Position numbers and translations under genes: made by a program
In this document: positions 1,975 through 24,172 of the stretch, piece after piece
Position numbering within the stretch: the first letter of the stretch is position 1
Layout of the letters: each line of letters opens with the position of its first letter
Notes under the pieces: generated by a model
What the model was told of the DNA's origin: nothing
Seen by the model: the letters and a program-made list of their open reading frames with translations, nothing else
Databases searched by the model: none
Assembly (NCBI GenBank): GCA_030682135.1
Contig: JAUXQT010000076.1
Coordinates: 1-61,998, forward strand
Direction: 5' to 3'
DNA length: 61,998 nucleotides
From: Nitrospirota bacterium
Lineage (GTDB): Bacteria > Nitrospirota > Nitrospiria > Nitrospirales > Nitrospiraceae

Positions 1975-2577
1975 ATGGATATACCCGCTCGACAGGCCAC
2001 CACGACAATCGATCCAACCCTGATGGCCCGCGTGGTCAAAGGCGATCAGCAGGCATTCAGCCAGCTCTACGACCATTCGAGCACCCTATTGTTCACGTTG
2101 GCGGTCAGGATCCTGGGCAATCACGAAGAGGCTGCGGAACTGTTGCAGGATGTCTATTTGGAGGTCTGGCGAAAAGTGTCCCGCTATGATGTCGGCCGTG
2201 GAACTCCGGTTGCGTGGCTGGTCACTCTCACCAGGAGTCGGGCCATCGACCGGCTGCGGGCCAGGGCTACGCGGGGTTATCGGGTTACACAATCGCTGGG
2301 GGACGGAGCAGCAGAGCACGTGGCCGACTTAGGCCCTAACCCCTTTGAGACACAGGCCGATCAGGAACTCCGGCTCAGCATCGGTGCAGCGATGGCAGGA
2401 TTGCCCCAGGCGCAGCGACAAGCGATTGAACTGGCCTACTACGAAGGACTCTCCCATGCCGAGATTGCCGCGCGGCTCAACCAGCCACTCGGGACCGTCA
2501 AGACCAGGATTAAACTTGGCATGTCCAAACTCCGGGATGGACTGCAGCAGTGGTGGAACCAAGGTGAGCTCCAATGA
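1975..2577 (+). CDS. ECF-type RNA polymerase sigma factor (SigK/RskA-paired type)
   Basis: About 200 residues with the two sigma-70 domains of an ECF factor. Region 2 lies near residues 30-75 (LAVRILGNHEEAAELLQDVY followed by a VWRK segment). Region 4 is an HTH near residues 145-195 (LSHAEIAARL, then GTVKTRI). It would redirect RNA polymerase to stress or envelope promoters. The start is uncertain: ATG at 1975 is used here, but an in-frame TTG at 1945 has a better-placed GAGGGGG upstream. The stop overlaps the ATG of the anti-sigma gene, the usual coupling of sigma and anti-sigma genes. Confidence 0.88.
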   Translation: MDIPARQATTTIDPTLMARVVKGDQQAFSQLYDHSSTLLFTLAVRILGNHEEAAELLQDVYLEVWRKVSRYDVGRGTPVAWLVTLTRSRAIDRLRARATRGYRVTQSLGDGAAEHVADLGPNPFETQADQELRLSIGAAMAGLPQAQRQAIELAYYEGLSHAEIAARLNQPLGTVKTRIKLGMSKLRDGLQQWWNQGELQ

Positions 2578-3590
2578 CGCATGAAGAACTTGAAGAATCG
2601 GTTCCGTTGTATGCCGCTGGGGCACTGGACCGAACCGAACGGCAGGCGCTGGAAGCCCACCTGCTCTCCGGTTGCGCCTCCTGTCACGCTGCGCTCAAAG
2701 ACTATCAATCCGTCGCTGCGCTTCTTCCGCTCGGGCTCAGTCAGACCAGTCCTCCGCGCGTCCTCAAGGCCACCATCATGGCCGGACGAAATCCCGCTCC
2801 GTTACCGGAAGAAACGGCCCAGAAAGAACCGGCCAAACCGAGCCTGGAGCCTGGCGAATGGATGAATCACCTCTTTCCTCCCATCGCCCCTGCCCGCTCA
2901 TGGTCCCTCCCCTGGGCCGTGGGATTGGCCACGCTTGCCATCGTCGCAGTCGGCGGCTACCTCTCCTGGAACGTGGTCAGCCAACGGTCCGAGGATACCT
3001 CGAACATTCAACAGCTCGAATCCTCACTCCAGGACAAATCGACGACGCTTACCAAACTGCAGCGTGAGATCGGCGAACAAGCGAAAGCCCTCGCCGAAGC
3101 ACGCAACGAAGTGCAGCAACGAACGAACGAAGCCGCGGAAGCGAAGGAACAGCTGGCCCAGCGTGAGGCTGACCTGGAAGAGGCTCGCGTACAACTCAGC
3201 CAGCGAAGCGGCGCACGCACCGGAGGCACTCCGCAAGACGAACTCGCCACACTCCTGCGAATCCCCAATATCAAAGCCGTCTCCCTCACCGGATCGGACG
3301 TGGCGAAACATGCTGCGGGATTCCTGCTCTACGACGCTCGAACCCAAAAGGTCTGGCTCTACTCGGTGAACCTTCCGGAATGTCCCAACGGCACGACCTA
3401 TCAACTCTGGGCCATTCAGGCCAAGCCCGTGAGCCTCGGGACCTTTCATATGGATCACGGAGATACCGCCCACCTCCTGGTGAAAAAAGTGTCGAACTTC
3501 ACCGATGCAAAAACATTCGCCCTGAGCCTGGAGCCATCAGGCGGCCGCCCCCAACCGACCGGCCCCATCTACCTCTTAAGCCGATCCTAA
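2574..3590 (+). CDS. Anti-sigma factor, RskA family
   Basis: 338 residues. The cytoplasmic N-terminus has a zinc-finger-like anti-sigma motif (HLLSGCASC, spaced H-x4-C-x2-C instead of the usual H-x3-C-x2-C). A single transmembrane helix lies at about residues 112-132. It is followed by a long coiled coil rich in Gln, Glu and Ala (about 140-215) and a periplasmic RskA C-terminal domain (about 235-335) with the family's WLYSVNLP and YQLWAI segments. It should hold the upstream ECF sigma factor at the membrane until an envelope signal releases it, probably by regulated proteolysis. The coiled coil between helix and sensor domain is longer than in most RskA proteins. Confidence 0.85.
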   Translation: MTHEELEESVPLYAAGALDRTERQALEAHLLSGCASCHAALKDYQSVAALLPLGLSQTSPPRVLKATIMAGRNPAPLPEETAQKEPAKPSLEPGEWMNHLFPPIAPARSWSLPWAVGLATLAIVAVGGYLSWNVVSQRSEDTSNIQQLESSLQDKSTTLTKLQREIGEQAKALAEARNEVQQRTNEAAEAKEQLAQREADLEEARVQLSQRSGARTGGTPQDELATLLRIPNIKAVSLTGSDVAKHAAGFLLYDARTQKVWLYSVNLPECPNGTTYQLWAIQAKPVSLGTFHMDHGDTAHLLVKKVSNFTDAKTFALSLEPSGGRPQPTGPIYLLSRS

Positions 3591-4606: not shown

Positions 4607-4699
4607 GCCTCGTCCAACCCTGTCTCCTTCTCACGGGCCATGCTACGATGTTGGCCTGAACGAAGGTGCTTAACACAGTCATCCTGGAGAAGAGTCACC

Positions 4700-5194
4700 G
4701 TGCCGACAGATGAACAGGATCAGGGCTTCATGCGAGTCGCATTGGAGGAAGCCGCCCGCGCACCGGCGATCGGCGAGGTGCCGATTGCAGCCGTGGTGGT
4801 GCGTGAGGGGAAAATTCTGGCCCAGTCACACAATTACCGCGAGCTCTGGCAAGACCCCACGGCCCATGCGGAGGTCATTGCCATCCGCGCCGCAGCGACG
4901 GCACTCGGCACATGGCGATTAACCGAGACCACGCTCTATGTGACCGTCGAGCCCTGTGCCATGTGTCTCGGTGCGATTATCCTGGCAAGAATTCCGCGAG
5001 TCGTCTTTGGGGCAAAAGATCCAAAAGCCGGCGCCTGCGGGTCGGTGTTCGACTTCACAGACGAACCGAAGTTGAATCATCGAGTTGAGGTTCTTGGCGG
5101 GGTCCTCGAGCAGGAAAGCCAGAGCCTCATTCAAACATTCTTCAGGGGCTTGAGAGAGACCTCAGATGTACCCAAGCAGCAACCACCTCAATAA
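4700..5194 (+). CDS. tadA: tRNA-specific adenosine deaminase
   Basis: 164 residues. It deaminates the wobble adenosine (A34) of tRNA to inosine. The zinc-dependent deaminase signature is complete: HAE, with the catalytic Glu, in AHAEVIAIR near residue 56, and PCAMCLGAI near residues 86-94 supplying the two Cys ligands. The open frame reaches back to an ATG at 4640, but family alignment favours the GTG at 4700, which has GGAGAAGAG about 6 bases upstream. The gene is convergent with the phosphopantetheinyl transferase gene, only 8 bp away. Confidence 0.93.
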   Translation: MPTDEQDQGFMRVALEEAARAPAIGEVPIAAVVVREGKILAQSHNYRELWQDPTAHAEVIAIRAAATALGTWRLTETTLYVTVEPCAMCLGAIILARIPRVVFGAKDPKAGACGSVFDFTDEPKLNHRVEVLGGVLEQESQSLIQTFFRGLRETSDVPKQQPPQ

Positions 5195-5202
5195 CACCAG
5201 TC

Positions 5203-5964
5203 CTATAAGGCAGCGCCGCACTGCACGACCCAGTCCTTCCCTTGCGCAGCTACCGCTGCCTCCCACCCCTCGCCACACGAGAGAAGGCGAACAGTCCAAT
5301 TATCTTGAATCCGAGAACCGAACGGAACCCGAATCTCTGCGCCGCCCCTGTCCGCTCCCAGGAGGATCTCACATTCGCTCAATCCAGGAAGCCCTATACC
5401 TTGCGCCTTGAGCACTGCCTCTTTCGAAACCCAGTATCGGAAGAACCAAGCCGCACGCTCTTCCTGATTGGCCCGCATCATCACTTCATGTTCAGACGGG
5501 GCAAAGTACCTCTGAGAAAGTTTTGCGACCTCCACCTCCGAACGAATCCGTTCAAGATCAACTCCGACTTCTTGTCCATTTGAAACCGCGATGAGCATGC
5601 GTCCCTGCGAATGCGACATATTGAACATGATCGAATACTGGCATTGCGACTCTCTATCTAAAAATGGTTTTCCTCCCTCGCTCCGGTCTATCACTATCAT
5701 ACCTGAGCTGACCTCCAGGTAGCGGCTGAGGACCACTCTGAGCCCTCCGTGTGCAAACACGAAACGCTTCCGGTCCTCGTCTCGAACCAGACGCGCAGCT
5801 CTCTGCCGTTCTTCCTCGTGTAACCACTGCGCGCATAGATCCAGACAGCGTGGCGACCCGTCAAGTTCAATCCCCCAGAGGTGAACAACATTGGGCTCAA
5901 GATTGGTGCGGCCTTGCCATTTAATTCTCGCGAGATAATCAATCGACTGGAATTGAATCAGCAC
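5203..5964 (-). CDS. 4'-phosphopantetheinyl transferase, Sfp type
   Basis: 253 residues. It transfers phosphopantetheine from CoA to the conserved Ser of carrier domains. Both family signatures are present: GVDLERI near residue 135, which binds Mg, and the WVSKEAVLKAQG block near residues 177-188. The length and the N-terminal pseudo-twofold half are those of the Sfp/Gsp type, not AcpS. It is the last gene of the minus-strand biosynthetic operon, 43 bp after the exporter, so it very likely activates the three carrier domains of the 3107-residue synthetase. Having its own activating enzyme makes the locus self-sufficient. Confidence 0.92.
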   Translation of the reverse strand: MLIQFQSIDYLARIKWQGRTNLEPNVVHLWGIELDGSPRCLDLCAQWLHEEERQRAARLVRDEDRKRFVFAHGGLRVVLSRYLEVSSGMIVIDRSEGGKPFLDRESQCQYSIMFNMSHSQGRMLIAVSNGQEVGVDLERIRSEVEVAKLSQRYFAPSEHEVMMRANQEERAAWFFRYWVSKEAVLKAQGIGLPGLSECEILLGADRGGAEIRVPFGSRIQDNWTVRLLSCGEGWEAAVAAQGKDWVVQCGAAL

Positions 5965-6007: not shown

Positions 6008-7675
6008 TCAGGGTCGACGGCTTTCCACTCCGGCCTTCATATAGTCCACAGCTTTCCCATCCTCTAATTTGATGACCTGATTGCCGAGATGAAAGTACCG
6101 GTCGTCGTGCGTGATGACGACCACTAGTTTGCCCCGCGCACGCAGGTCCGGAAGCAACTTCTTGTAAAAAATCTCCTTATACTGCGGATCTTGATCTGCT
6201 GCCCATTCATCGAACACATAGATCGGGCGATCCTCCAAATAGGCCGTGACAAGGGCCAGCCGCTTTCGCTCCCCCTGTGAGAGATCGAGGGTGGAAAACG
6301 TTCGTTCACGCACAGATACTTTCTGATCCATGTGCAACATTTCTAAATAGTAGGAAGCAAATCTCTCGATTTGAGAGTCCGACTGACCAAACAGTTTAGT
6401 GAATACATGAAAGTCTGAAAACACAACCGAAAAGTGTTCGCGATTCCAATCTCGATTGGCATCGGTGATCGTCGTGCCTGCTAACGTCACATGTCCCTGT
6501 TGTGGCTGATACAATCCTGTGAGAACCTTCACAAAGGTGGACTTCCCGCTCCCATTCCCTCCGACAAGAAACACAAGTTCGCCAGGGTGCAGTTCAAGGC
6601 TGATGGGGCCAAGCGTGAAGGGCGCTTCGCGCCCATTCTCCTCGCCATACGAAAACACAACATCCTTCCATCGCACAATGGGAAGGGTCTTCGTTTCGAG
6701 GCCTGTCGAGTCAACCGTCTGGGCGTCCTCATCCCTCACATCCAGGGTCACACCTAATCGCACAATATTTTCTAACGCCACTTGACCCCGTTCGATAGTG
6801 GGTATCGCGCCAAGAATGCTCCAGATGGGCCCCATCAAATAAAGGACGGCCACCACGTACCCGGTCAGGGCCTCGGGGGACACCGTCCCCACAGATGGAA
6901 ATAGGAACACGATTGAACCGATAAGGGAGTACAGCGAGACCTGCATCCAGGCTCCTGCCAGATCTTGCCTCCGCGTAGATTCCAAATTCGTAGACCTAAG
7001 CCGCTCTGCAGCCCTTCGCAGGTCCTCATTCACAAATTCCATCCGGCGAGCCCGATGCATCAATAACTCTTTCAGCCCATCTGTCAGAGAACGAAAAAGC
7101 TGAAACAGCTCACCCCTGGCCTCACGGGCTTCAGCGATGACGCTGAACGTGCTGCTGTACAGCCATTGATACCCCAAGGCGCCAATCAGGGTGGCTCCAA
7201 CAACTCCAAGAAACATACCCCACGATAGCCAAGCGAGGTAGAGCCCGCAACCCAGCACTACTGCCACATTCATGATCAACTGCGGGAAACATTGAATGGC
7301 CCAAGTGACACAACTGACGTCGTCTGTCAGCGTGACGAGAATATTGGCAGCCCCTCGCTGCTCGGCACGACGCAACGGGGCCCGCACGATCTTCGCACAG
7401 AGCGACAAGGAGAGATCCAGAATCGTATCTTGTGAGAATCGGACGAGCAGGCGCTGAGACCAGAGGCTTGCCAGCAGCTTTCCGACGACAAGGACCACGA
7501 ACTCCAGAATTACGACATTTGAAGGATCTGAGGGATGATGGAGCACCTGATTAATGAGAGCCAAAACTCCCGCGCTCAAGAGGCCTGATATGACGCCAGC
7601 ACCTACCATGAGCCAGGCCATAGCTCTTGAACGCTGCACAATAAAGCGGAGAAATCGTTTGAGTGGCATCGCCAA
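6008..7675 (-). CDS. Cyclic-peptide/siderophore-type ABC exporter (PvdE/SyrD-like)
   Basis: 555 residues; transmembrane and ATPase domains are fused in one chain. About six membrane helices occupy residues 15-310. The nucleotide-binding domain follows, with Walker A GGNGSGKST near residue 372, the signature LSQGERKR near 467, Walker B ending in YVFDEWAADQDP, and a switch His in VVITHDD. The DEWAADQDP block and the overall length are typical of the PvdE/SyrD family, which moves nonribosomal peptides or their precursors across the inner membrane. It lies 35 bp after the synthetase gene in the same operon, so its cargo is most likely the acylated dipeptide. Confidence 0.9.
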   Translation of the reverse strand: MAMPLKRFLRFIVQRSRAMAWLMVGAGVISGLLSAGVLALINQVLHHPSDPSNVVILEFVVLVVGKLLASLWSQRLLVRFSQDTILDLSLSLCAKIVRAPLRRAEQRGAANILVTLTDDVSCVTWAIQCFPQLIMNVAVVLGCGLYLAWLSWGMFLGVVGATLIGALGYQWLYSSTFSVIAEAREARGELFQLFRSLTDGLKELLMHRARRMEFVNEDLRRAAERLRSTNLESTRRQDLAGAWMQVSLYSLIGSIVFLFPSVGTVSPEALTGYVVAVLYLMGPIWSILGAIPTIERGQVALENIVRLGVTLDVRDEDAQTVDSTGLETKTLPIVRWKDVVFSYGEENGREAPFTLGPISLELHPGELVFLVGGNGSGKSTFVKVLTGLYQPQQGHVTLAGTTITDANRDWNREHFSVVFSDFHVFTKLFGQSDSQIERFASYYLEMLHMDQKVSVRERTFSTLDLSQGERKRLALVTAYLEDRPIYVFDEWAADQDPQYKEIFYKKLLPDLRARGKLVVVITHDDRYFHLGNQVIKLEDGKAVDYMKAGVESRRP

Positions 7676-7710: not shown

Positions 7711-10700
7711 CTACACAGCCAGATCGCGATTGCAGGGTGCACGCGACATCGCACCGTGAGCATTTTCGGCAAGGAATGCCTGAACATGGACGGATAATTC
7801 TTCGACGTGCGGTGAAGTAAGGAGAGCCCCCCCACCGGCGGCTGCAATATGCACAGTCTTACACCCGCCGCCGTCAAGCTTGTCCCAGAAATATCTGGTA
7901 TCTGTCACCGTCTCACCGACGAGATATTCCGACGCAACAATATTGAGAATGCGACCGGAATATTTGCCCAATGTGTAGCGGGCCACCGCATGAAATGTCG
8001 ATTGCTTCATTCGTTCGATCTGAAGCTCAATGAACAATCCACTCTCAGCCGGTCTTCTTCGCAAGAAAGACAAGAATCGCTCACTCTTGCGCCAGATAAA
8101 CGTCCACCATTCTTTCATGGGCAGTCGAAGAAGCAAGTGAATATTTCCCACTGCCCGCCAGAATACAAATAGCGGCACCCACAGTCTCATCCTCCACTTT
8201 TCACGATGAGGGCGATATGAAATCGGGTGCCAGCTATCCAGCACGATCAAGGTAACGGCTTCTCCCTGCTCAACTAATTGCTGCGCCATCTCATAAGCAA
8301 CCAACCCGCCAGTACAGGCACCAATGATTGTATACGGCCCCTCTCGACGACAGCTGCGCATCTCAGTAATGTAATGCTCCGCCATCTCTGGCACGGAGGT
8401 AAACGGGGCCTCCTTCCCATCCAATCTTCGCGCCTGCAATCCATAGACCGGCTGATCTGGGCCCAATAGCCTTGCCAATTGAGCAAAGACCAAAACACTG
8501 CCACCTATTCCCGGCACCATAAAGATAGGGGGTGCTGTCCCACTCGGCTGAATCGCCACCAGCGATTGCCACAGGGGATGCCACTCTTCACGTGAGAGCA
8601 CTGAGGCAAAGGCTGCAATGGTCGGCGCTTGAAACAACGTGGCGAGCGGAAGGTGTCGCCCATAGACCTGCTCAAGAAGATAAAACAACTGCGCCGCCTT
8701 GAGCGAATGGCCGCCAAGATCGAAGAAGTTGTCGTGCACTCCGATCTTTGAGACACCTAATACCTGCTGCCACAAGGCCGCAAGTTGGACCTCCAGCTGA
8801 TCGCGCGGCTCAACGTAAACCGGTGCGCCTGAGAGAGAGAAAACCGGAGCCGGCAGAGCCTGGACATCGACCTTATTATTAGCCGTGAGAGGCATCGCCT
8901 CTAGAAATACAAAGAATGAGGGGGTCATATAATCGGGAAGCGACGTCCGCATAAATGAACGCAACTCTGTCGAACTTTGCTGTTGCCCCTCCTGACACAC
9001 GACATAGGCCGCCAGCTGCTTCAATCCTTGCTGATCGTCCCGCGCGGTTACCACGACCTGACGGACAGCAGGGTGGCGACTCAGCACCGCTTCGATCTCG
9101 CCTAATTCGATCCTGAACCCTCTAATCTTGACCTGATGATCGATCCGACCAAGATGCACGAGGCATCCATCCTGACGGTATCGAACCAGATCTCCCGTAC
9201 GATACAACTTTGCGCCTGATGCAGATGAGAACGGATTGGTGATAAACCGCTCATCGGTCAACTCAGGACGACGACGATATCCTCTAGCCAAGCCATGTCC
9301 GCCGACATACAGCTCTCCCGATACACCGATGGGAACCGGTCGCAAGTGGCGATCCAGGATATACATTTCCGTGTTGGCAATGGGGCGACCGATGGTGATT
9401 TCTTTCACGCCTGGTTCGATTTTCGCGATCGTGGACCAAATAGTCGTTTCAGTCGGGCCATACATATTCCACAAGGCCTTCGACCGATCCAGGAGTTTCA
9501 CCGCGAGATCCACCGGCAAGGCTTCCCCCCCACAGAGTGCCGTCAGCGACGAGCTGCCGGTCCATCCGGCATCCAACAACAGGCGCCAGGTCGCCGGAGT
9601 AGCTTGCATCAGGGTGGGCTGGATCGTGTCAAACAGTTTCCGCAGCCTGTACCCATCCATCGCAACGGCGCGGCTCACGATTTCCACATGCCCTCCGACC
9701 AACAAGGGCAAATACAGCTCTAACCCTGCAATATCGAACGACAGGGTCGTCACGGAGAGCAAAATATCTTGCGCTGAACAGCCTGGCTCACGTTTCATGG
9801 ACCAGAGGAAATTCACGAGGGAGCGGTGTGTAATCTCCACGCCTTTGGGCTGTCCAGTCGACCCTGACGTATAGATGACGTAGCCAAGGTCGTTGGAGCT
9901 GGCAATCGGAGGAAGACAGTGATCGGCCTCCCTCGTGAAAGAGTTTCTCATCCGATCGAGGCACAACACTTGGCATGCGTGAAACTCGAACAAATCTGAC
10001 AAGGCCGTCGTCGTCACCACCAGGGGAGCACCGGCATCTTCGACCATGAAGCGGAGTCGATCCCGTGGAAAGTCAGGGTCGAGCGGGAGATAGGCCCCTC
10101 CGGCTTTCCAGACAGCCAACAGCGCCACGAGCATTTCCAGCGAGCGTTCAAGACAAATTCCCACAATCACTTCCCGAGTCACTCCCTGAGCAGACAGCGC
10201 ACGAGCCATCTGATTTGCCTGAACATTCAGTGCTCGATAGCTCAATGTCTGCCCATCCATCGAAACGGCAACGGCATCCGGAGTCTGTTCCGCCTGAAAT
10301 TCGAAGAGTTCCGAGAAACATTGCAAGTGAGGATAGCTGGCGGCGGTGCCATTCCATTTGGTCAACAACTGCCGCTCTTCGACGGGACTCAGCATGGACA
10401 ACTCGGATATACGAAGCCCTGGATGCGCCAGTGCCTGTTGAAGGAGCGAACCAAAATGGCCGAGCATTCTCTCTGCGGTCTGTCGTGAAAAAAGATCCGT
10501 ATTGAACGATAGAATCACCTTCTTCGCAATTTCCGTCTCGACCGTAAGACTCAGATCGAACTGTGCTGAACCGGTATCGATCAGTAACGGGACCCAGGAG
10601 AGCCCATGAAGATCCACCTCACCAATCGGAGCATTGGCGACGTTGAAGAGGACCTGAACCAGAGGCAAGTAACTCGTGTCACGACTGACATGGAGCGTCT

Positions 10701-13700
10701 CCACCAATTTCTCAAATGGATAGTCCTGATTGGTGTAGGCGCCGAGTGCCGTGTTACGGACACGCATCACCAACTCTCCAAACGTGGGATCGTCCGACAG
10801 GTCAGCCCGAAACACCAATGTATTCACGAAGGTGCCGACCAAATATTCGGTCAATACCTGCGTCCGGTTCGCGACCGGAGCGCCCACGGCAAAGTCCGTC
10901 TGGCCAGACCACCGGCTCAACAAGACTTGGAAACAGGCTAATAACGTCATGAATAGCGTTACTCGACGATGCGAGCTAAATGATTTTAATCGTTCGATGA
11001 GCGCCACCGGCAGATCCATGGCACAATAGGATCCTGTATACGTTTGCGAAGGCGGTCGAGGATAATCGGTCGGCAGAGATAACACCGGCAAACTCGCCAG
11101 TTTCTTCTGCCAATACTCCATTTGAGAGCGAAGCGTATCGTCCGTCAGGCAGCGTCGCTGCCACATGGCAAAATCCGCATATTGGATCGGAAATGGTTTT
11201 TCCTGAATCTCGCGACCCTGACTGAGGGCATTATAATGAGCCGCAAACTCTTGCCCTATCACACCAAATGACCACTGATCCCCGATGATGTGGTGCAGGC
11301 TCAACAGGAGTACATGATCTTCCGCACCGAGTTGGATTAAAGAAAAGCGTGCTACGGGTCCTCGCTCAAGATCGAATGGAGTGCGAGCTTCTTCCTCGAC
11401 AATCCGGATGGCTTCAGCTAACCGCTGATCCTTCGGCTTCCCTCGCAAGTCGATCTCGATCCAATGTGGAGACTGCCACTCCCCCACAACCTGAACCGGT
11501 CCGCTTTCGGTCATTCGAAACGTCGTCCGGAACGATTCGTGCCGCCGCGTGACAGCCTCGATAGTCTGACGCAACCACTGCTTATTTAATGGTCCAACTT
11601 GCCTCGAAGCGAACGGCATGTTGTACGCCGTCCCTTGAGGAGCAAGTCGATACATGATCCACATCCGTTGCTGCGAGTAGGACAGCGGGAGCGACTCCGT
11701 ATGAGGCACGACGACAATTGGAGGCAGCGCGGCACGCCCCGCGCCTCGTTGTTGTTCGATTCGGATATGTTCGGCTAATAAAGCAATGGTGGGAGAATTA
11801 AAAATGGTCCTGAGGGGAAGGTCTACGAGAAACATCTCTTGGACCCGAGAGCTAATCTGCGTGGCCAGCAAGGAATGTCCACTCAAGTCAAAAAAGTTGT
11901 CATGGACGCTGGACGCCCGTATACCAAGCACCTCCGACCAAATATCCATGAGACTTTGTTCAATATGATCACGCGGGGCTACACGCGCGACTGTCTGGTC
12001 GATGGAGAGGAGATCCGGCATCGGCAGCGCCTGCCGATCGACTTTCCCGCTAGGGCTGTAGGGTAACACCTCAAGCACGACACAGGCTGCAGGCACCATG
12101 AACTGGGGGAAGGTCCTCCTGAGCCCGTTCATGAGCTCTCGGTTAGACAAACCGGATTGCGCATCGATAGTCACATAGGCCACAAGCGAAGGTCCACGCG
12201 GTGGAATCTCGCGCAGCACGACCGCCGCCTCTCGAACACCGGGAACTGCCATGAGAGCCGCCTCGATCTCTCCAGGTTCGATCCGGAAGCCCCGTAGTTT
12301 GACCTGCTGATCGACTCGTCCAATATAGAGAAGCTGACCGTCTCGACGGAACTTCCCTAGGTCGCCGGTCTTATACATGCGATCGCCAGGGACAAAGGGA
12401 TCGGCCATGAACGATGCTGCGGTGAGGTCTGGTTGGTGAAGATATCCCTGGCCAACCCCGGCACCGGCAATATAGAGCTCGCCGATAGCCCCCACGGGAA
12501 CGGGATTCCGGTGGCGATCCAACAGATACACCCGCAAGTTTCGCAAGGGACGGCCGATCGGAACCTCAGAACCGAACCCCTGGCCTTCCCAGAGAGCGGA
12601 GAGGTTCACCATCGTCGCAGCCACCGTCGCTTCCGTTGGCCCATAGGCATTCAGCAACTGCACACGCGTTCCGGCCAAAGCAAACCAACGAGCACAGACG
12701 GACCGCGCGGCTTTCTCGCCCCCGATAATGATCTTCTGCAACGAGGCCGGAATGCTCACACGATCGGCCACCCACTCCTGAACAAGATGCTGCCAGTACG
12801 CAGTAGGCAGGAAGAGCGTGGTCACGCAGTCCTGCTCGCAACTCTGCATGAACTCAACGGGAGATCCAGGGGGCAGGCCCGCACGAATTACCAACGTGGC
12901 GCCCGTGACTAGACATGGAAATATTTCAAGGACAGCGGCGTCGAAGCTGATCGTGGCCATGTGCAACACGCGGTCGCGTCTGGACATAGGGCATTCAGCC
13001 GCAAAGGCAAGGGCGAAGTTCACCAGCGATCGGTGGGAAATCATCGCACCTTTAGGCCGGCCTGTGGATCCCGATGTATAGATCACATAGGCCAACTCAT
13101 CTGCCGCAACCTGAACTGGAGCGCTGTCCTCCGCACACAGCTCGACCATCGACTGATCATCATCCAGACAGACCATCGTCGGTTGCTCGGCACGCAACCG
13201 ACTGCGTAGCCGGCTATTGGTAACAACCGTTGTCAGTTGGCAGTCCCGCACCATGAACGCCAGACGCTCCTCTGTATAGTCTGGATCGAGCGGCACATAG
13301 GCGGCGCCGGCCTTGAGAATTCCGAGCATGCCCACCACCATCTCGACCGACCGCTCGAGAAGCAACCCCACAAGGCTTCCCCGTTCAATCCCCTTTTGTC
13401 GAAGAACATGCGCAACGCGATTCGATTGCTGCGAGAGCTGCCGATAGGTGAGCGTGCCGCTGGCCGAGACCGCTGCCAATGCATCCGGCGTATGAGCCGC
13501 CTGTGCGTCGATAAGGGCATGGATGCTAGAGCCGCTCGGATAGTCCGCGCGGGTCCGATTCCACTCCATGAGAACTTTCCGCCGCTCCCAGTCCATAAGC
13601 ATCGAAAGTTCAGACAATGGCTGCTCGGGAGACACGGCCATCGCGGCTAGCAACGACCGCAAATGATCCAGAATCTGCGCGATCGTCGCCGCCTCGAACA

Positions 13701-16700
13701 GAGTACTGTTGTATTCGATTGCCAGCTCGATATGGCCCTGATGCCGACGCGAGAAAAGCGTCGCATCGAAGGGAGTGGCGAGTCGCTCCGTCCTGAGACG
13801 TTCAACGCCGATGCGGCCCAAGAGAAGATCGGCCATGCCATCTTCCTCCCACGCCACCATCAAGCGAAACAACGGAGCGCGCATTTCATCACAGTCTGGA
13901 TAGACTGCCCGGACAACTTCCTCGAATGGAAGATCTTGATGATCGGTCGCCTCCACAACGACTCTCCGCACCTGTCCAATCAGTGCGCGCACCGTCGGGT
14001 TCTGGGAGAGATCGAGCCGCAACGCGATGGTGTTCACCATACAGCCGAGAATCGGCTCAACTGTCTGTGCAACGCGATTACTCACTGGAGTCCCGACAAC
14101 GACATCCATCTGTCCCGTATAGCGATAGAGCAATGCCGCGAATCCCATCACGATGGCCATGAAGGGGGTCATCCCCATTTGCTGGCAAAAGCGGTCGAAC
14201 GCTTCGGTTTCCGAGGCCGATAGATCCAAACCCACTGTCCGGCTGGCTTGGCCTGCCTCTGCTGATCGTGGAAAATCGCCTGGCAATTCGCAGGGAGCAG
14301 GAAGATCCTTCAGCTGCCGCTGCCAATACAGACGTTGCGCATCGCGCCTCTCCGAATCGAGCCTGATTTGCTCCCAGGCGACATAGTCGCGATAGGACAA
14401 TCCTAGACTCGGCCACAGAATCTGCTCCCCGGCACAGGCTGCCTCATAGGCGACGCTCAGCTCCCGACACAACAGCCGAACGGACCATCCATCCATGATC
14501 AAATGATGAAACGTGGCGATCATGACATGCTCGTGATCGTCAACCTGTGCCAACAGAATCCGCATCAACGGACCATGGCGAAGATCGAAACGGCTTGCGG
14601 CTTCCTGCGCGACCAATCGCCGCACCTCGGATTCACGCCTCTGCGGATCCCTCGCGCGAAGATCGTGAAGCGTGAAGGCCAGATCCCTGCCGCCTGACAG
14701 CCTCTGAAACGGCACCCCTGCCTCTTCGTCGAAGGTCACCTGCAGGATATCGTGACGGCGCACGATCGCGCGAAGGCTCGCTCCCAACGCCGGCACATTG
14801 AGGTCGCCACGTAACCGAACCGCCACAGGAATATTATTGACAGGAGAATCTGGGCTCAGCCGTTCGGCAAACCACAGACGGCGCTGTGACGAAGACAAAG
14901 AAAATGTTGGAGATGCAGCTGAGCCGAGAGGCAAGGCCCGTCCACCGACTGTAGTCGCCCCTTCGCCCTGCCGACGCTTGTCTTGACGACTCAGGAGATG
15001 CTGCCCCAGATCTCGAATACTCCAGTCCATGAGCAACTGATGAAAGGACAGCTCGGTCCCGAACTCTTCCTCCAGACGATTCTTCAAGACCCCGGCCTTG
15101 AGCGAGTCGATGCCGAGTGTTCCGATCGGCTGCTCGAGCGCGATACGGGTGGAATCGACTTCGAGCTGTTCAGCGAGCAACCGCTGCAAGTAGGCCTCGA
15201 TCGAACCCATGCCGGATGCCGGCATCCCCCCCCTGCCATCCACCGCTTCCTTCTCCACTGCCTTCGTATAGAAGGCATGCATCCCAGAGTGACTAATTCC
15301 TAATATCGGTAAGGTTTCAGACAAGAATGCATCCTTGGATGCCCTCCGTTGAATCTTGCCACTGGACGTCTTGGGCAATCCTCCGCTGCGGACTAACACC
15401 ACCGAGGAGACCGCTGCCTCATGCGCCTCCATCACAGCTTGCCGAATGGCAATGGCCATCGCTTCCACGTCAACAGTTGCTGTCCGTTCGAGTTCCTGCA
15501 AGACCACCAGCAACTCCTCACGACCTTCCTGAATAGAAAAAGCGGCTCCCCCATTGATCCGTAACCCGGGATAGCTCCGCTCAACCGTACGCTCAATGTC
15601 ATGGGGATACAGATTCCGTCCATGGAGGATGATCAAATCTTTGAGCCGTCCCGTGACAAAAAGCTCTCCGCCATGAAGAAATCCTAAGTCGCCGGTTCGC
15701 ATGAAGGTGCGCTGGGTATTTCCACTGAGCAATGCACGAAAGGACACATCCTGATCCGCTTCGCGATTCCAATACCCCTCGGACGTACAGGGGCCGGCAA
15801 CCCAGATTTCCCCGACCTGGTCGGCTGCGCAACCAGCAAGCGTGACCGGATCCACGATGCGAACAGTGGTGCCTGCAAGCGGTGGCCCACACCCGACCAG
15901 CCTCCGAGCCCCTTCGGCATCAGAGGAGACTTGGCACACGCGATGTCCGGCAAGTGCAACATCTGCCACGTGCAGAATGAGCGGCGCCTCACCCCATCGT
16001 TTTGTGCTAACCACCAAAGTGGATTCAGCCAATCCATAGGCAGGAAAAAAGGCTTCTCGTGCAAAACCATGAACGTGGAAAGCCTCGGTGAATTCGTTGA
16101 TCGTCTCAGCATGAATCGGCTCTGCGCCACAACTGGCTACAACCCATCGCTGAAGATGGGACGTCCAGCCTTTCTGTTGCCGGAGCGCTTTGATACAGGA
16201 TTCGTAGGCGAAGTTCGGGGCGCCGCTATGAGTAATACCGAAGCGATCTATGGCCTCTAGCCACCGAAGGGGACGTCTCAGGAATGTCAATGGAGACATC
16301 AGGTATGCCGGGATGCCTGAATAAAATGGTGCGATGAGACCATGTACGAGCCCATAGTCATGAAAATAGGGTAACCAACAGAGCGACCGGCTATTGGAGT
16401 CGACACAAGCGACCTGATGAAGAGCTTCGCACTGTGCCAGGATATTCAGATGGCTGATCATCACGCCGCGAGGAGTGGCCGTTGAGCCTGAAGTATATTG
16501 CACATAGGCCATGGAGGATTCGTTGGGACGAGGCAACTCGACCGTATCTGCATCGGCGCAATCGTAGGGTTGATCCGTGGCCACCCATTCAAGCTGGGAC
16601 CCATTCGTACCGAACAAAAGATCCGAAGAAATAGTCTTGATACTAGAACTGGTGAGCACCAGCGACACCTGCGCATCCTCGATAATGGCGCGGAGCCTTG

Positions 16701-17034
16701 GCAGACTGTGCTTCCGCCTGGCAAGATCCGGAGCGGAAGCAGGAACCGGCACGAGTCCGGCACATATACAAGCCCAAAATGCGCAGACGACATCGAACCC
16801 TGAGGGGAAGAGAAGTAGAACTCTCGTTCCAGGTCGAGCCTTGAGTGCAAGATAGCCGGCAAGTCCGCGTACTTTGCGTTCAAACTCGCCATAGGTGAGC
16901 TGATTTTCAAGCTCAAGGTTATCGCAAACCCACGCGTAGGCCAGTTGCCCCGGGCACTGGCGACAGCGGTAGGCGAACAACTCCCCTAACGTACTGACAG
17001 GAATAGACAGAGGTTCCATTATACGATCATACAT
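7711..17034 (-). CDS. Lipopeptide nonribosomal peptide synthetase, FAAL-ACP-C-A-PCP-C-A-PCP-TE
   Basis: 3107 residues in one chain. A fatty-acyl-AMP ligase (about 10-590) loads an acyl chain on an ACP (Ser644 in LGIDSLK). C1 (HHLIMDG at 843-849) joins it to the residue chosen by A1 (about 1170-1670) on PCP1 (Ser1721). C2 (HHIIGDQ from 1914) condenses this with the residue of A2 (about 2245-2725) on PCP2 (Ser2777). A thioesterase (about 2850-3090) releases the product. My reading of the A2 pocket, D-I-L-Q-L-G-M-I-W-K, is close to the known glycine code. A1 reads D-A-L-F-I-G-A-V-A-K, nearest to one tyrosine code, and is uncertain. No epimerisation domain is seen. The thioesterase has Cys2907 where Ser is usual (GACTGG). 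The likely product is an N-acyl dipeptide ending in glycine. Confidence 0.93.
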   Translation of the reverse strand: MYDRIMEPLSIPVSTLGELFAYRCRQCPGQLAYAWVCDNLELENQLTYGEFERKVRGLAGYLALKARPGTRVLLLFPSGFDVVCAFWACICAGLVPVPASAPDLARRKHSLPRLRAIIEDAQVSLVLTSSSIKTISSDLLFGTNGSQLEWVATDQPYDCADADTVELPRPNESSMAYVQYTSGSTATPRGVMISHLNILAQCEALHQVACVDSNSRSLCWLPYFHDYGLVHGLIAPFYSGIPAYLMSPLTFLRRPLRWLEAIDRFGITHSGAPNFAYESCIKALRQQKGWTSHLQRWVVASCGAEPIHAETINEFTEAFHVHGFAREAFFPAYGLAESTLVVSTKRWGEAPLILHVADVALAGHRVCQVSSDAEGARRLVGCGPPLAGTTVRIVDPVTLAGCAADQVGEIWVAGPCTSEGYWNREADQDVSFRALLSGNTQRTFMRTGDLGFLHGGELFVTGRLKDLIILHGRNLYPHDIERTVERSYPGLRINGGAAFSIQEGREELLVVLQELERTATVDVEAMAIAIRQAVMEAHEAAVSSVVLVRSGGLPKTSSGKIQRRASKDAFLSETLPILGISHSGMHAFYTKAVEKEAVDGRGGMPASGMGSIEAYLQRLLAEQLEVDSTRIALEQPIGTLGIDSLKAGVLKNRLEEEFGTELSFHQLLMDWSIRDLGQHLLSRQDKRRQGEGATTVGGRALPLGSAASPTFSLSSSQRRLWFAERLSPDSPVNNIPVAVRLRGDLNVPALGASLRAIVRRHDILQVTFDEEAGVPFQRLSGGRDLAFTLHDLRARDPQRRESEVRRLVAQEAASRFDLRHGPLMRILLAQVDDHEHVMIATFHHLIMDGWSVRLLCRELSVAYEAACAGEQILWPSLGLSYRDYVAWEQIRLDSERRDAQRLYWQRQLKDLPAPCELPGDFPRSAEAGQASRTVGLDLSASETEAFDRFCQQMGMTPFMAIVMGFAALLYRYTGQMDVVVGTPVSNRVAQTVEPILGCMVNTIALRLDLSQNPTVRALIGQVRRVVVEATDHQDLPFEEVVRAVYPDCDEMRAPLFRLMVAWEEDGMADLLLGRIGVERLRTERLATPFDATLFSRRHQGHIELAIEYNSTLFEAATIAQILDHLRSLLAAMAVSPEQPLSELSMLMDWERRKVLMEWNRTRADYPSGSSIHALIDAQAAHTPDALAAVSASGTLTYRQLSQQSNRVAHVLRQKGIERGSLVGLLLERSVEMVVGMLGILKAGAAYVPLDPDYTEERLAFMVRDCQLTTVVTNSRLRSRLRAEQPTMVCLDDDQSMVELCAEDSAPVQVAADELAYVIYTSGSTGRPKGAMISHRSLVNFALAFAAECPMSRRDRVLHMATISFDAAVLEIFPCLVTGATLVIRAGLPPGSPVEFMQSCEQDCVTTLFLPTAYWQHLVQEWVADRVSIPASLQKIIIGGEKAARSVCARWFALAGTRVQLLNAYGPTEATVAATMVNLSALWEGQGFGSEVPIGRPLRNLRVYLLDRHRNPVPVGAIGELYIAGAGVGQGYLHQPDLTAASFMADPFVPGDRMYKTGDLGKFRRDGQLLYIGRVDQQVKLRGFRIEPGEIEAALMAVPGVREAAVVLREIPPRGPSLVAYVTIDAQSGLSNRELMNGLRRTFPQFMVPAACVVLEVLPYSPSGKVDRQALPMPDLLSIDQTVARVAPRDHIEQSLMDIWSEVLGIRASSVHDNFFDLSGHSLLATQISSRVQEMFLVDLPLRTIFNSPTIALLAEHIRIEQQRGAGRAALPPIVVVPHTESLPLSYSQQRMWIMYRLAPQGTAYNMPFASRQVGPLNKQWLRQTIEAVTRRHESFRTTFRMTESGPVQVVGEWQSPHWIEIDLRGKPKDQRLAEAIRIVEEEARTPFDLERGPVARFSLIQLGAEDHVLLLSLHHIIGDQWSFGVIGQEFAAHYNALSQGREIQEKPFPIQYADFAMWQRRCLTDDTLRSQMEYWQKKLASLPVLSLPTDYPRPPSQTYTGSYCAMDLPVALIERLKSFSSHRRVTLFMTLLACFQVLLSRWSGQTDFAVGAPVANRTQVLTEYLVGTFVNTLVFRADLSDDPTFGELVMRVRNTALGAYTNQDYPFEKLVETLHVSRDTSYLPLVQVLFNVANAPIGEVDLHGLSWVPLLIDTGSAQFDLSLTVETEIAKKVILSFNTDLFSRQTAERMLGHFGSLLQQALAHPGLRISELSMLSPVEERQLLTKWNGTAASYPHLQCFSELFEFQAEQTPDAVAVSMDGQTLSYRALNVQANQMARALSAQGVTREVIVGICLERSLEMLVALLAVWKAGGAYLPLDPDFPRDRLRFMVEDAGAPLVVTTTALSDLFEFHACQVLCLDRMRNSFTREADHCLPPIASSNDLGYVIYTSGSTGQPKGVEITHRSLVNFLWSMKREPGCSAQDILLSVTTLSFDIAGLELYLPLLVGGHVEIVSRAVAMDGYRLRKLFDTIQPTLMQATPATWRLLLDAGWTGSSSLTALCGGEALPVDLAVKLLDRSKALWNMYGPTETTIWSTIAKIEPGVKEITIGRPIANTEMYILDRHLRPVPIGVSGELYVGGHGLARGYRRRPELTDERFITNPFSSASGAKLYRTGDLVRYRQDGCLVHLGRIDHQVKIRGFRIELGEIEAVLSRHPAVRQVVVTARDDQQGLKQLAAYVVCQEGQQQSSTELRSFMRTSLPDYMTPSFFVFLEAMPLTANNKVDVQALPAPVFSLSGAPVYVEPRDQLEVQLAALWQQVLGVSKIGVHDNFFDLGGHSLKAAQLFYLLEQVYGRHLPLATLFQAPTIAAFASVLSREEWHPLWQSLVAIQPSGTAPPIFMVPGIGGSVLVFAQLARLLGPDQPVYGLQARRLDGKEAPFTSVPEMAEHYITEMRSCRREGPYTIIGACTGGLVAYEMAQQLVEQGEAVTLIVLDSWHPISYRPHREKWRMRLWVPLFVFWRAVGNIHLLLRLPMKEWWTFIWRKSERFLSFLRRRPAESGLFIELQIERMKQSTFHAVARYTLGKYSGRILNIVASEYLVGETVTDTRYFWDKLDGGGCKTVHIAAAGGGALLTSPHVEELSVHVQAFLAENAHGAMSRAPCNRDLAV

Positions 17035-17593: not shown

Positions 17594-19120
17594 TCAACCA
17601 GCGTTCCCCTGCGCCTTTTCCTGCAACGCGCGTCTCAGCTCGACCATCGCCAAGGTATCTCGCTCGCAATATCGCAGCAAGCTCTCCTCAATCGCCGCCC
17701 GCTCGATCCAATCGGTTTCGACAAAAACCATACGGTAGTACTGGCTGGCGGCATGGCCTCCCTCTTTGATTGCCAAATCGTCATAGGCAAGTGAGGGCAC
17801 CATCGCCGGCAGCACCGACTTGATGGAATACGACCCACCGAACGCTGGATGGTAGTAATGATCTCGTATGATCGGGAACAGGTCCCAGAGCCTGGCAATA
17901 ATACGAGATAAGGCTGGCTTGAGAGACGGAATAGCCACAGAGAGCTGTTCCAAAATGGACCGTTCGTAGGGTGAATAGACGCAGATACTCCCCTTCTCCC
18001 CAAGGGATTCCAGCAAGGATTCAACCAGTACCCTGCGAGGATCGCTCACATCCTTGTGCAAAAACTCCTCGTGGCGCAGCTCACCGGTTTCCTGCTCAAT
18101 ATGATTCGACCACTGAACCGGGAGCGCTTGATAGGGTCTTGTCTCAGAAAATCGAGGCACCGCCATCATGACCGTCTCGAAATCGAGGTGATGGACGGGA
18201 TACTTCACAGCCTGCAGCATCGCGCCCAGCTTCGCAGACACCCACTCGACATTCTCTTTCACGCGCCGCTGAACCGGCGACAATTTCGTGCCGGCTGGAA
18301 TCTCGTCGATCGTCGTCACGCCCTGCTGTGTCAGTTGACCGACCACCTGCTTCGATCCCGGCAAATAATGAATCCAGCGCGCTGGCTTGTCTTTGGTGCA
18401 ATGGTCCCAGAACGGGCAATCGTAGGGTGTATGGCAATGCCGGTCCGGCTCAATGGCAGGGGCATGAGGCTGGAGCAACATACGAGTCATATCAGCCAAC
18501 CGACCCGGCACCTCAGCCCTGCGTTGCGCCACAGCCTCGGACAGATCCTGAATCGCAAACAGCTCTGTTAAATCGATGGTTCCATCCCGATAGAGATAGC
18601 CTGTATTGATATGCATGAGACCGACGGAGACGAGCGTCAGCCCTGCGCCTACGATCACCTCGCTTTGAATAGCCAGATCTTCAAGATGGATGTCTTTGAC
18701 CCTGGTGGAAGACTTGACCTCAATTAGACGCCAGCCACTAGGCTGTCCCTCTTCGGCTGGAACACGCTCCAGCACATCCGCGCGAATCAGCACTCCACCG
18801 TGCAAGAACGCCGCTTCGAAAATCGCCGGCACGGCAGGATCCTCGATCAGCGCGGCCGTCTGCGCCAGCGCCGCCTCGCTCTGGCGATAGCCTGCTGTGA
18901 CCAACAGACCGCCCGGGAAGCGGTTCCTGGCCATCTCTCCGACTTCTGTGCCCATCTCAAACATCGCCTGAGTCGCCGCATCCGGCTTCGTCGCCAGAAA
19001 GGGCTGGTGAATTTCGAGATACAGCCGCTTGTGACATTGAAGGCCCGACAAAAACTTCGACTTGGACAGGCGCGTAGCCTTCGGCAGAGGAACAGGAGAG
19101 AGATCGTTCAGTTCATTCAT
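17594..19120 (-). CDS. DUF2779 protein: Cas4/RecB-like PD-(D/E)XK nuclease fused to DnaQ-like exonuclease
   Basis: 508 residues from the ATG at 19120, preceded by AGGG; an in-frame GTG at 19147 is possible but lacks a ribosome site. The N-terminal half resembles Cas4/RecB nucleases. It has a Cys near residue 29 in GLQCHKRLYLE, the active-site block RLIEVKSSTRVKD, and later three Cys in CHTPYDCPFWDHC, together suiting a 4Fe-4S cluster. The C-terminal half (about 325-500) starts with HLDFET, the first acidic motif of DnaQ-like 3'-5' exonucleases, and is the DUF2779 domain proper. The role of this family is not established; DNA repair or defence is plausible from the domain pairing and the accessory surroundings. 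Confidence 0.8.
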   Translation of the reverse strand: MNELNDLSPVPLPKATRLSKSKFLSGLQCHKRLYLEIHQPFLATKPDAATQAMFEMGTEVGEMARNRFPGGLLVTAGYRQSEAALAQTAALIEDPAVPAIFEAAFLHGGVLIRADVLERVPAEEGQPSGWRLIEVKSSTRVKDIHLEDLAIQSEVIVGAGLTLVSVGLMHINTGYLYRDGTIDLTELFAIQDLSEAVAQRRAEVPGRLADMTRMLLQPHAPAIEPDRHCHTPYDCPFWDHCTKDKPARWIHYLPGSKQVVGQLTQQGVTTIDEIPAGTKLSPVQRRVKENVEWVSAKLGAMLQAVKYPVHHLDFETVMMAVPRFSETRPYQALPVQWSNHIEQETGELRHEEFLHKDVSDPRRVLVESLLESLGEKGSICVYSPYERSILEQLSVAIPSLKPALSRIIARLWDLFPIIRDHYYHPAFGGSYSIKSVLPAMVPSLAYDDLAIKEGGHAASQYYRMVFVETDWIERAAIEESLLRYCERDTLAMVELRRALQEKAQGNAG

Positions 19121-19187
19121 CGTGTATGACCCTAATCGGACGGACACACATTTGTCCAGCAGGCAGAATGTACAACCAGAATCAGTC

Positions 19188-22738: not shown

Positions 22739-24082
22739 TCAACAATTCGTCCTCACCGATGGCCGCGTGTCTGTTCCGGTTCCGATCGTGACTTCGATCC
22801 GCGCAACCCCCTTCACATTGGCGCACAAATCTCCCAGCCCTGGGGTCACTAATCGATAGGGACCGCCTTTGGATTCCGGCAGCGCTTCTCCGTCGACTTC
22901 GTACAGCAAGATTCCCCACTCCAAGGCTTGTGCGAGCGTGAGACAGGCTGAATATTTTCCGTCTGCCGAATGCACTGTCACATGGTCGGCTTTGATCGCC
23001 AAGGCCGGCACATCCAACAACGCCTTGAGGCGAACACCTTTGCCCTTCATGTTGGGCATCACCGTCGAAATGTCGAGCTGCTGTTCTGCCGGCAGGGCCG
23101 CGATTGCCGAACGATCGAGCGAGACAGGCTGCACCACCGCCCCGTCGATCCGCACAATACCGGGACCGCTTCGATCCCGCTCGGTGATCGTTTTGATCAC
23201 GGCTGTCAGCATGTCGTTCAACGGCGTCGGGATACCGAACTCCCGCCCGAGCTTGGCAACATACCCATTCAGCACATCGATCTCGGTCGGCCGCCCAGCC
23301 TTCCAATCGTCATACATTGACGTATGAATATCCCGAATCTCCTGGGTCCAGCGAACCACCTTCTCCGCCATATCGTGGGCTAACGGCACCTTGACGGCTG
23401 CCGCGACTGCCATCACTTCTCCCACGATCTGTTGAATGACTCGCAACATCTCGGGATGATCGAGCGCCTTGGCGACTTTGTCGTCGATCATCACCGTCAG
23501 AGGATTAAAGACGCAATTCCAGCACATCTTCTCCCACTTACTTTTCCGCACATCCTCTGTGAGCTGACAGGGAATGCCCGCTTGCTTGAACAAATCCGCG
23601 ATGGCCAGCAGACGAGAACTCTGATGCCCCATCATCTCGCCGATCGCCACGGCTCCCTTCTTGTAATGATCGATGACCCCTGGCGCGGCGATCTTGGAGT
23701 AAATGAAGGCCACCCCACCCACGACACAATCCCGTTGGAGGCGCGCCACGATACGGTCTTCTGTATCGACCCCATTCTGGAGGGTCAAGATGACGGTTTG
23801 ATCGGTCAAGACCGGTTCGATTTGGGTGAGCACCTCATCCAAATCGTAGGCTTTCACAGAGAGGATGATCAGATCCGGCTTTGGGAGATCGCGAGGATCG
23901 GACGCCGCTAGCGGATGGACGGTGAAGGAACCCTTGGCACTGCGGATCGTGAGGCCATTTTGCTTCACGGCAGCGAGAGTCTTCGATCTCAGGAGGAAAG
24001 ACACATTCGGATTATTCCTCGCCAGATGCGCCCCGAAAAACCCGCCCACCGATCCGGCACCGACCATCAGAATATTTTTCAT
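22739..24082 (-). CDS. 2-dehydropantoate 2-reductase-like protein fused to a sulfite-oxidase-type domain
   Basis: 447 residues from the ATG at 24082, with GGAGGAG upstream. The N-terminal 310 residues are a PanE/ApbA-type reductase: Rossmann motif VGAGSVGGFFG, later KWEKMCWNCVFNPLT carrying the catalytic Lys region, and a helical C-domain. The last 120 residues or so (after about 320) look like a piece of the molybdopterin-binding oxidoreductase fold: VRLKALLDVPAL, SADGKYS, and GGPYRLVTPG. Known PanE proteins end near 310. The added domain lacks any sign of the full cofactor-binding core, so it may serve as a fold only. A substrate other than ketopantoate is possible. Confidence 0.75.
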   Translation of the reverse strand: MKNILMVGAGSVGGFFGAHLARNNPNVSFLLRSKTLAAVKQNGLTIRSAKGSFTVHPLAASDPRDLPKPDLIILSVKAYDLDEVLTQIEPVLTDQTVILTLQNGVDTEDRIVARLQRDCVVGGVAFIYSKIAAPGVIDHYKKGAVAIGEMMGHQSSRLLAIADLFKQAGIPCQLTEDVRKSKWEKMCWNCVFNPLTVMIDDKVAKALDHPEMLRVIQQIVGEVMAVAAAVKVPLAHDMAEKVVRWTQEIRDIHTSMYDDWKAGRPTEIDVLNGYVAKLGREFGIPTPLNDMLTAVIKTITERDRSGPGIVRIDGAVVQPVSLDRSAIAALPAEQQLDISTVMPNMKGKGVRLKALLDVPALAIKADHVTVHSADGKYSACLTLAQALEWGILLYEVDGEALPESKGGPYRLVTPGLGDLCANVKGVARIEVTIGTGTDTRPSVRTNC

Positions 24083-24172
24083 CGCCTTACTCCTCCCGAA
24101 CAATCTACGGGAAAACGCAGTTTACCCCTGAAGCATTCACAGACATCGAAAGCTGAGATAGCCACGACCACC

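Follow-up and report, generated by a model that had tools for sequence, protein, structure and literature searches.

A cysteine-type thioesterase domain without the catalytic histidine at the end of an exporter-linked nonribosomal peptide synthetase of Nitrospirota

In the textbook scheme, the release of a finished chain from an assembly line depends on a serine or cysteine that acts together with a histidine and an aspartate. The window analysed here, a 61,998-nucleotide stretch of DNA from a Nitrospirota bacterium, encodes a nonribosomal peptide synthetase (NRPS) whose terminal thioesterase (TE) domain carries a cysteine where a serine is expected. The initial annotation had noticed this residue, called Cys-type thioesterases rare, and suggested that the chemistry of release may differ from simple hydrolysis, with the TEs of obafluorin and sulfazecin synthesis as possible parallels. 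The question raised by this locus is what such a domain does with the chain that it receives.

The NRPS gene (7711..17034, minus strand, 3107 aa) has, based on the translation of its ORF and on Pfam and NCBIfam matches, the architecture FAAL-ACP-C1-A1-T1-C2-A2-T2-TE. On the same strand, profile matches place the fatty acyl-AMP ligase (FAAL) loading domain at 15304..17007, the condensation domains C1 and C2 at 13573..14904 and 10363..11694, the adenylation domains A1 and A2 at 12025..13509 and 8872..10242, and the T2 carrier domain (GGHSL) at 8599..8817; the terminal thioesterase-fold domain (aa 2799-3107), located by Pfam PF00975 and by its predicted structure, spans 7714..8640. Since C1 follows FAAL-ACP, it probably links the fatty acyl chain with residue 1. 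The active-site motif of C2 (aa 1914-1920) reads HHIIGDQ, versus HHxxxDG. Neither a second NRPS nor further condensation domains were found in the genome.

The A2 code is DILQLGMIWK in the window and DILQLG[MV]IWK in almost all complete orthologues that were read; PMC12283262 lists it for glycine domains, and the terminal residue is therefore predicted to be glycine. The A1 code of the window (DALLIGAVAK) is unlike that of its near orthologues (DGTVIAEVWK), while others carry DTELIGTVAK. Compared with the nearest orthologue from a named MAG (L055), identity is 59% for FAAL, 19-49% for ACP1-C1-A1-T1, and 66-88% for C2-A2-T2-TE, which suggests that the front end was exchanged around a fixed unit of glycine module and TE. 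The low-identity stretch, module 1, corresponds to 12025-15204 (minus strand). In another pair of orthologues, L056 and L057, the FAALs are 54% identical, and A1, C2 and A2 about 90%. The chain carried on T2 is expected, from this domain order and these codes, to be a fatty acyl-X-Gly.

The codon at 8314..8316, ACA on the plus strand and TGT on the minus strand, is codon 2907 of the ORF and indeed encodes the cysteine of GACTGG (sequence context: GPYTIIGACTGGLVAYEM). The domain matches PF00975 at aa 2836-2940, C-terminal to T2, with 82.4 bits (cut-off 26.4), although the match is confined to the N-terminal half of the profile, and the alignment sets Cys2907 onto the serine of G-x-S-x-G, as the initial annotation had proposed. 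Cysteine occupies this nucleophile-elbow position in all 66 distinct TEs of the family to which the domain belongs. We dismissed another serine as the nucleophile, because the elbow is taken by Cys2907 and the alignment brings no other G-x-S-x-G to this position.

Ordinary type I TEs draw their second catalytic residue, a histidine, from a C-terminal GxH motif. The corresponding stretch in the window reads VHIAAAGGGALLTSPHVEEL, with Gly3068 (7831..7833, minus strand) at the histidine position, and this histidine is lost throughout the family, where the position is held by Ser (45 members), Thr (15), Ala (4), Gly (1) and Met (1). The same pattern, cysteine present and histidine absent, occurs in the complete genomes of N. 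defluvii (L090) and N. moscoviensis (L094), and its recurrence there and in 66 distinct sequences led us to dismiss a sequencing or assembly error. Orthologues of the whole synthetase are widespread within the same bacterial family; an outgroup Cys-type TE of the same order (L019) has its histidine in place (VPGGH). Acid position I, Asp2933 in the window (8236..8238, minus strand), is Asp in 31, Glu in 19 and Asn in 16 members. The complete Ser/Cys-His-Asp triad of a PF00975 type I TE is thus not found, the histidine being absent family-wide and the acid position varying among D, E and N. Conserved instead is a signature composed of SW or TW, DTR and mostly DSG: Trp2935 (8230..8232, minus strand), in the motif [DEN]-[ST]-W, is invariant in 66/66, as are Asp3045-Thr3046-Arg3047 (DTR; 7894..7902, minus strand), which are also present in L100 and L102 and set the family apart from most Ser-type TEs. 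Searches of open-access papers for TE domains without histidine returned no relevant report. Cys-type TEs as such were already known; the window TE we regard as a variant of the type I TEs, with an invariant cysteine and no catalytic histidine.

A substitute base elsewhere in the domain would make the enzyme a hydrolase or an ordinary releasing TE; its product could then be of a conventional kind, a free-carboxylate lipopeptide handed to a SyrD/PvdE-type exporter. A replacement histidine was nevertheless rejected in general terms, since no invariant histidine column exists anywhere in the domain among the 66 family TEs, and the most likely candidate that we keep as a rival is His2936 (8227..8229, minus strand), located three residues past Asp2933 in the loop after beta-6. 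It is the most conserved histidine of the family (61/66) and is rare at that column in other TEs, but five members have L, Y, Q or P instead, it is absent from L100 and L102, both of which show the W/DTR/DSG signature and the exporter linkage described below, and 35 of the 66 members have Glu or Asn in place of the Asp that would have to orient it. We therefore consider hydrolysis or ordinary release with His2936 as base unlikely, but a rival to be taken seriously.

The setting of this family among related enzymes was derived from an alignment of 306 distinct TE domains from Nitrospirota, Acidobacteriota, Gammaproteobacteria, Cyanobacteria, Myxococcota and others. Outside the family, the nucleophile is Ser in 192 and Cys in 47 of 239 domains, in a sample that was drawn with a query containing Cys types and is neither random nor a source of unbiased frequencies. 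The statement that Cys-type TEs are rare was thus too strong, and the possibility raised along with it, that cysteine might turn out to be common among ordinary hydrolytic TEs, is borne out for the cysteine taken alone (47/239). The combination with histidine loss is another matter: all but one of the Ser types have the histidine (191/192), versus 31 Cys types with and 16 without it. The association of Cys with histidine loss has a Fisher p of ~1e-9 on 70%-identity representatives, a value from which kinship is not removed. Cysteine at the nucleophile position thus appears to be recurrent, and histidine loss essentially confined to Cys types. A serine requires a base, while a thiol may manage without one, and the pattern of histidine loss would therefore fit a working cysteine rather than decay. 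On the best FastTree tree the nucleophile has to change ~22 times and the histidine state ~8 times, of which well-supported branches force only 1-2; with too few pairs for an independent-pairs test, convergent origins of histidine loss are not claimed.

Two further patterns were observed in this survey. A second group of Cys types without histidine (GxCMGG, with a loop such as LPV[YDN]P[AG]G[MI] replacing GxH) is found on both NRPS and PKS in Acidobacteriota, a Desulfobacterales MAG and others (L110:10001-10900, L119:7279-8169, L123:10001-10930, L130:5975-6904, L131:2711-3640 and L167), and no adjoining ABC exporter was found for it. A third pattern (L178, L210 and L313) combines GxCAGG with a Cys-bearing loop, GPDxCxGxTM or similar, at the GxH site and has D, G or A at the acid position.

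In the window, the NRPS gene is followed after ~35 bp from its stop by an ABC exporter gene (6008..7675, minus strand), which belongs to the cyclic-peptide (SyrD/PvdE-type) subfamily TIGR01194 (456 bits versus a curated cut-off of 286), and by a 4'-phosphopantetheinyl transferase gene (5203..5964, minus strand) that is kept in the cassette. TEs with the W/DTR signature and Asp or Glu at the acid position have an adjoining ABC exporter in 33 of 33 loci with enough flank; most of these loci are close kin, and the count represents some four lineages, not 33 independent cases. Three of them lie outside the Nitrospira family: L097 from a gammaproteobacterial MAG, L100 from a Rheinheimera MAG and L102 from a Nitrospirales MAG, the last with an exporter that is MsbA-like and not of TIGR01194. 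An adjoining ABC exporter was found in none of the other loci with enough flank, be they of the Asn variant (0/11), Ser-type (0/21) or other Cys-type (0/9). The Asn variant (16 members, 11 of them with enough flank) shows that the domain can do without an exporter gene next to it.

The Asn-at-acid variant without adjacent exporter (L066-L070, L072, L073, L076, L077, L079, L082, L095) mostly has RTA in place of DSG, and it coexists with the D/E form in MAG RBC044 (L067 and L064). Close relatives of the TE-ABC-PPTase cassette occur in the gammaproteobacterial MAG L097, with a three-module synthetase, and on L093, a contig of 3.3 kb that carries the label Rokuibacteriota; either gene transfer or mis-binning may account for them. 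Many Nitrospira loci share the flanks of the cassette, a DUF2779 gene upstream (17594-19147) and a deaminase-family gene (4640-5194) and an ORF (2574-3590) downstream, pointing to an old, vertically inherited site. Elsewhere in the window, an ORF at 22739-24103 (minus strand) encodes an odd fusion of a ketopantoate reductase (ApbA/PanE) with a C-terminal oxidoreductase molybdopterin-binding domain.

The loss of the histidine, the variable acid position and the strict linkage of the D/E form to the exporter would also suit a non-catalytic TE domain, one that serves to dock or shield the chain on T2 or to make contact with the exporter, while release is spontaneous or left to another enzyme. The cysteine, retained in 66/66, would not be required of a dead site. 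Purifying selection acts on the TE: its dN/dS between close orthologues is 0.04-0.22, a range shared by the C, A and FAAL domains, which are catalytic, and decay was dismissed as an explanation. A search of the genome yielded no further PF00975 thioesterase, and the synthetase is the only NRPS found in it, which leaves no other PF00975-family enzyme on hand for release. A non-catalytic role is, on balance, rather unlikely, but likewise a serious rival.

The alpha/beta-hydrolase TE fold is complete in the predicted structure (pLDDT 84.7), down to strand beta-8 and the loop behind it, where the histidine should sit. EntF, Vlm2, NocB and the FASN TE match it with Z scores of about 22-25. EntF, Vlm2, NocB and other Ser-type PF00975 TEs share with the window TE the fold and the terminal position in the assembly line, whereas their Ser-His-Asp triad contrasts with the cysteine and missing histidine found here. 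The best structural match (Z 26.7 over 256 residues) is AB3403 (A1S_0115; PDB 4zxh), the NRPS of the acinetin-505 operon of Acinetobacter baumannii, which is nearest to the window TE in both fold and logic, having a Cys nucleophile (GGWCFGG) and Asp at position I. The exporter of that system, which we take to be of the RND type, differs from the ABC exporter found here. As in the window, AB3403 has a glycine-activating module, and a separate acyl-activating enzyme and ACP feed it (PMC5376624). Unlike the window TE, AB3403 keeps the catalytic histidine (LPGDHSSIMY), consists of a single module, and shows no W/DTR/DSG signature in the aligned sequence.

The comparison with ObiF1 (obafluorin) and SulM (sulfazecin) bears on whether the domain closes a beta-lactone or beta-lactam. 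These are type I NRPS TEs with a Cys nucleophile, a likeness to Cys2907 that favours such a reading, but they possess a full Cys-His-Asp triad with the Asp at position II after beta-7 (PMC11298585, PMC6668435). In the window the histidine, which is required in ObiF1 and belongs to the triad of SulM, is replaced by Gly3068 (S, T, A, G or M in the family), and the acid site (D, E or N) lies at position I, with no conserved acid right past beta-7 (NIVAS). The substrates of ObiF1 and SulM bear a beta-nucleophile that gives rise to the ring, while the terminal residue here is read as glycine, which has no beta-carbon and hence no beta-nucleophile; if the code DILQLGMIWK is read correctly, ring closure of the obafluorin or sulfazecin type is ruled out. 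A ring-closing role is accordingly very unlikely, and the window TE is, by sequence and structure, a member of the PF00975 fold family with an incomplete triad that stands outside the beta-lactone/beta-lactam group. The broader suggestion of the initial annotation fares better: release may well differ from simple hydrolysis, the histidine being missing, but the link to obafluorin and sulfazecin does not hold. In SyrD/PvdE-type lipopeptide cassettes, where a TIGR01194 exporter lies beside the NRPS, the exporter subfamily and the acylated-peptide logic are the same as in the window; here the exporter follows a His-less Cys-type TE.

Thiol-thioester exchange is approximately energy-neutral, but base catalysis is required when water or an alcohol is the attacking group. 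Cys2907 could thus accept the chain and shield it from water, to be collected later by an amine or thiol. Our preferred reading, a good possibility which we would stop short of calling probable, is that the domain keeps the TE fold but works as an acyl carrier or acyltransferase: Cys2907 would receive the acyl-X-Gly chain and hand it to a non-water acceptor before export. The FAAL would load the fatty acid, to which module 1 would attach an amino acid that varies and module 2 a glycine, so that T2 ends up carrying acyl-X-Gly. Cys2907, set in its nucleophile elbow and oxyanion hole, would pick up this chain through thiol-thioester exchange with no strong base. With no histidine and a weakened Asp, water would stay unactivated and hydrolysis be suppressed, and the chain would pass to an amine or a thiol/thiolate, the product being carried out by the neighbouring ABC exporter. 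For a His-less Cys family, product release by ordinary hydrolysis is probably not to be expected. The sequences themselves show the domain order, the cysteine, the missing histidine, the selection and the linkage to an exporter; the formation of an acyl-Cys and the involvement of an acceptor other than water we infer.

Mutants of known Cys-type TEs bear on this transfer reading in both directions. Exchange of the Cys for Ser in ObiF1 and SulM turns the reaction to hydrolysis of substrates or products (PMC6668435, PMC11298585), which argues that the cysteine itself disfavours hydrolysis. In published work the ObiF1 variant H1284A lost product ~80-fold, as much as C1146A; the ObiF1 histidine is thus needed to load the cysteine, which counts against a histidine-independent mechanism, and a family without it must have compensated for the loss. 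As a conjecture, the invariant Arg3047 or an altered loop may fill this role. No acceptor or tailoring enzyme is evident beside the genes, and this also counts against transfer. That the TEs with G-x-C-[TMF]-G-G, [DEN]-[ST]-W, DTR and usually [DN]SG for GxH, found in Nitrospira, Gammaproteobacteria and other Nitrospirales, form a distinct TE-fold class of histidine-independent cysteine acyltransferases, which pass an acyl-glycyl chain to a non-water acceptor and are coupled to ABC exporters, is a wider proposal that we advance only tentatively, with the balance leaning against it.

A selected and conserved family that kept the cysteine and dropped the histidine poses the question whether a thioester-forming TE can run without a general base and so evade hydrolysis. 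If true, this would be a simple natural route to lipopeptides released as amides or thioesters, and would be useful for NRPS engineering. The sequence signature of the family's TEs can be used to find more members. The cassette described here points to the only NRPS product of this bacterium, probably a nitrite-oxidising Nitrospira, an environmentally important nitrifier of whose specialised metabolism little is known (PMC9765116).
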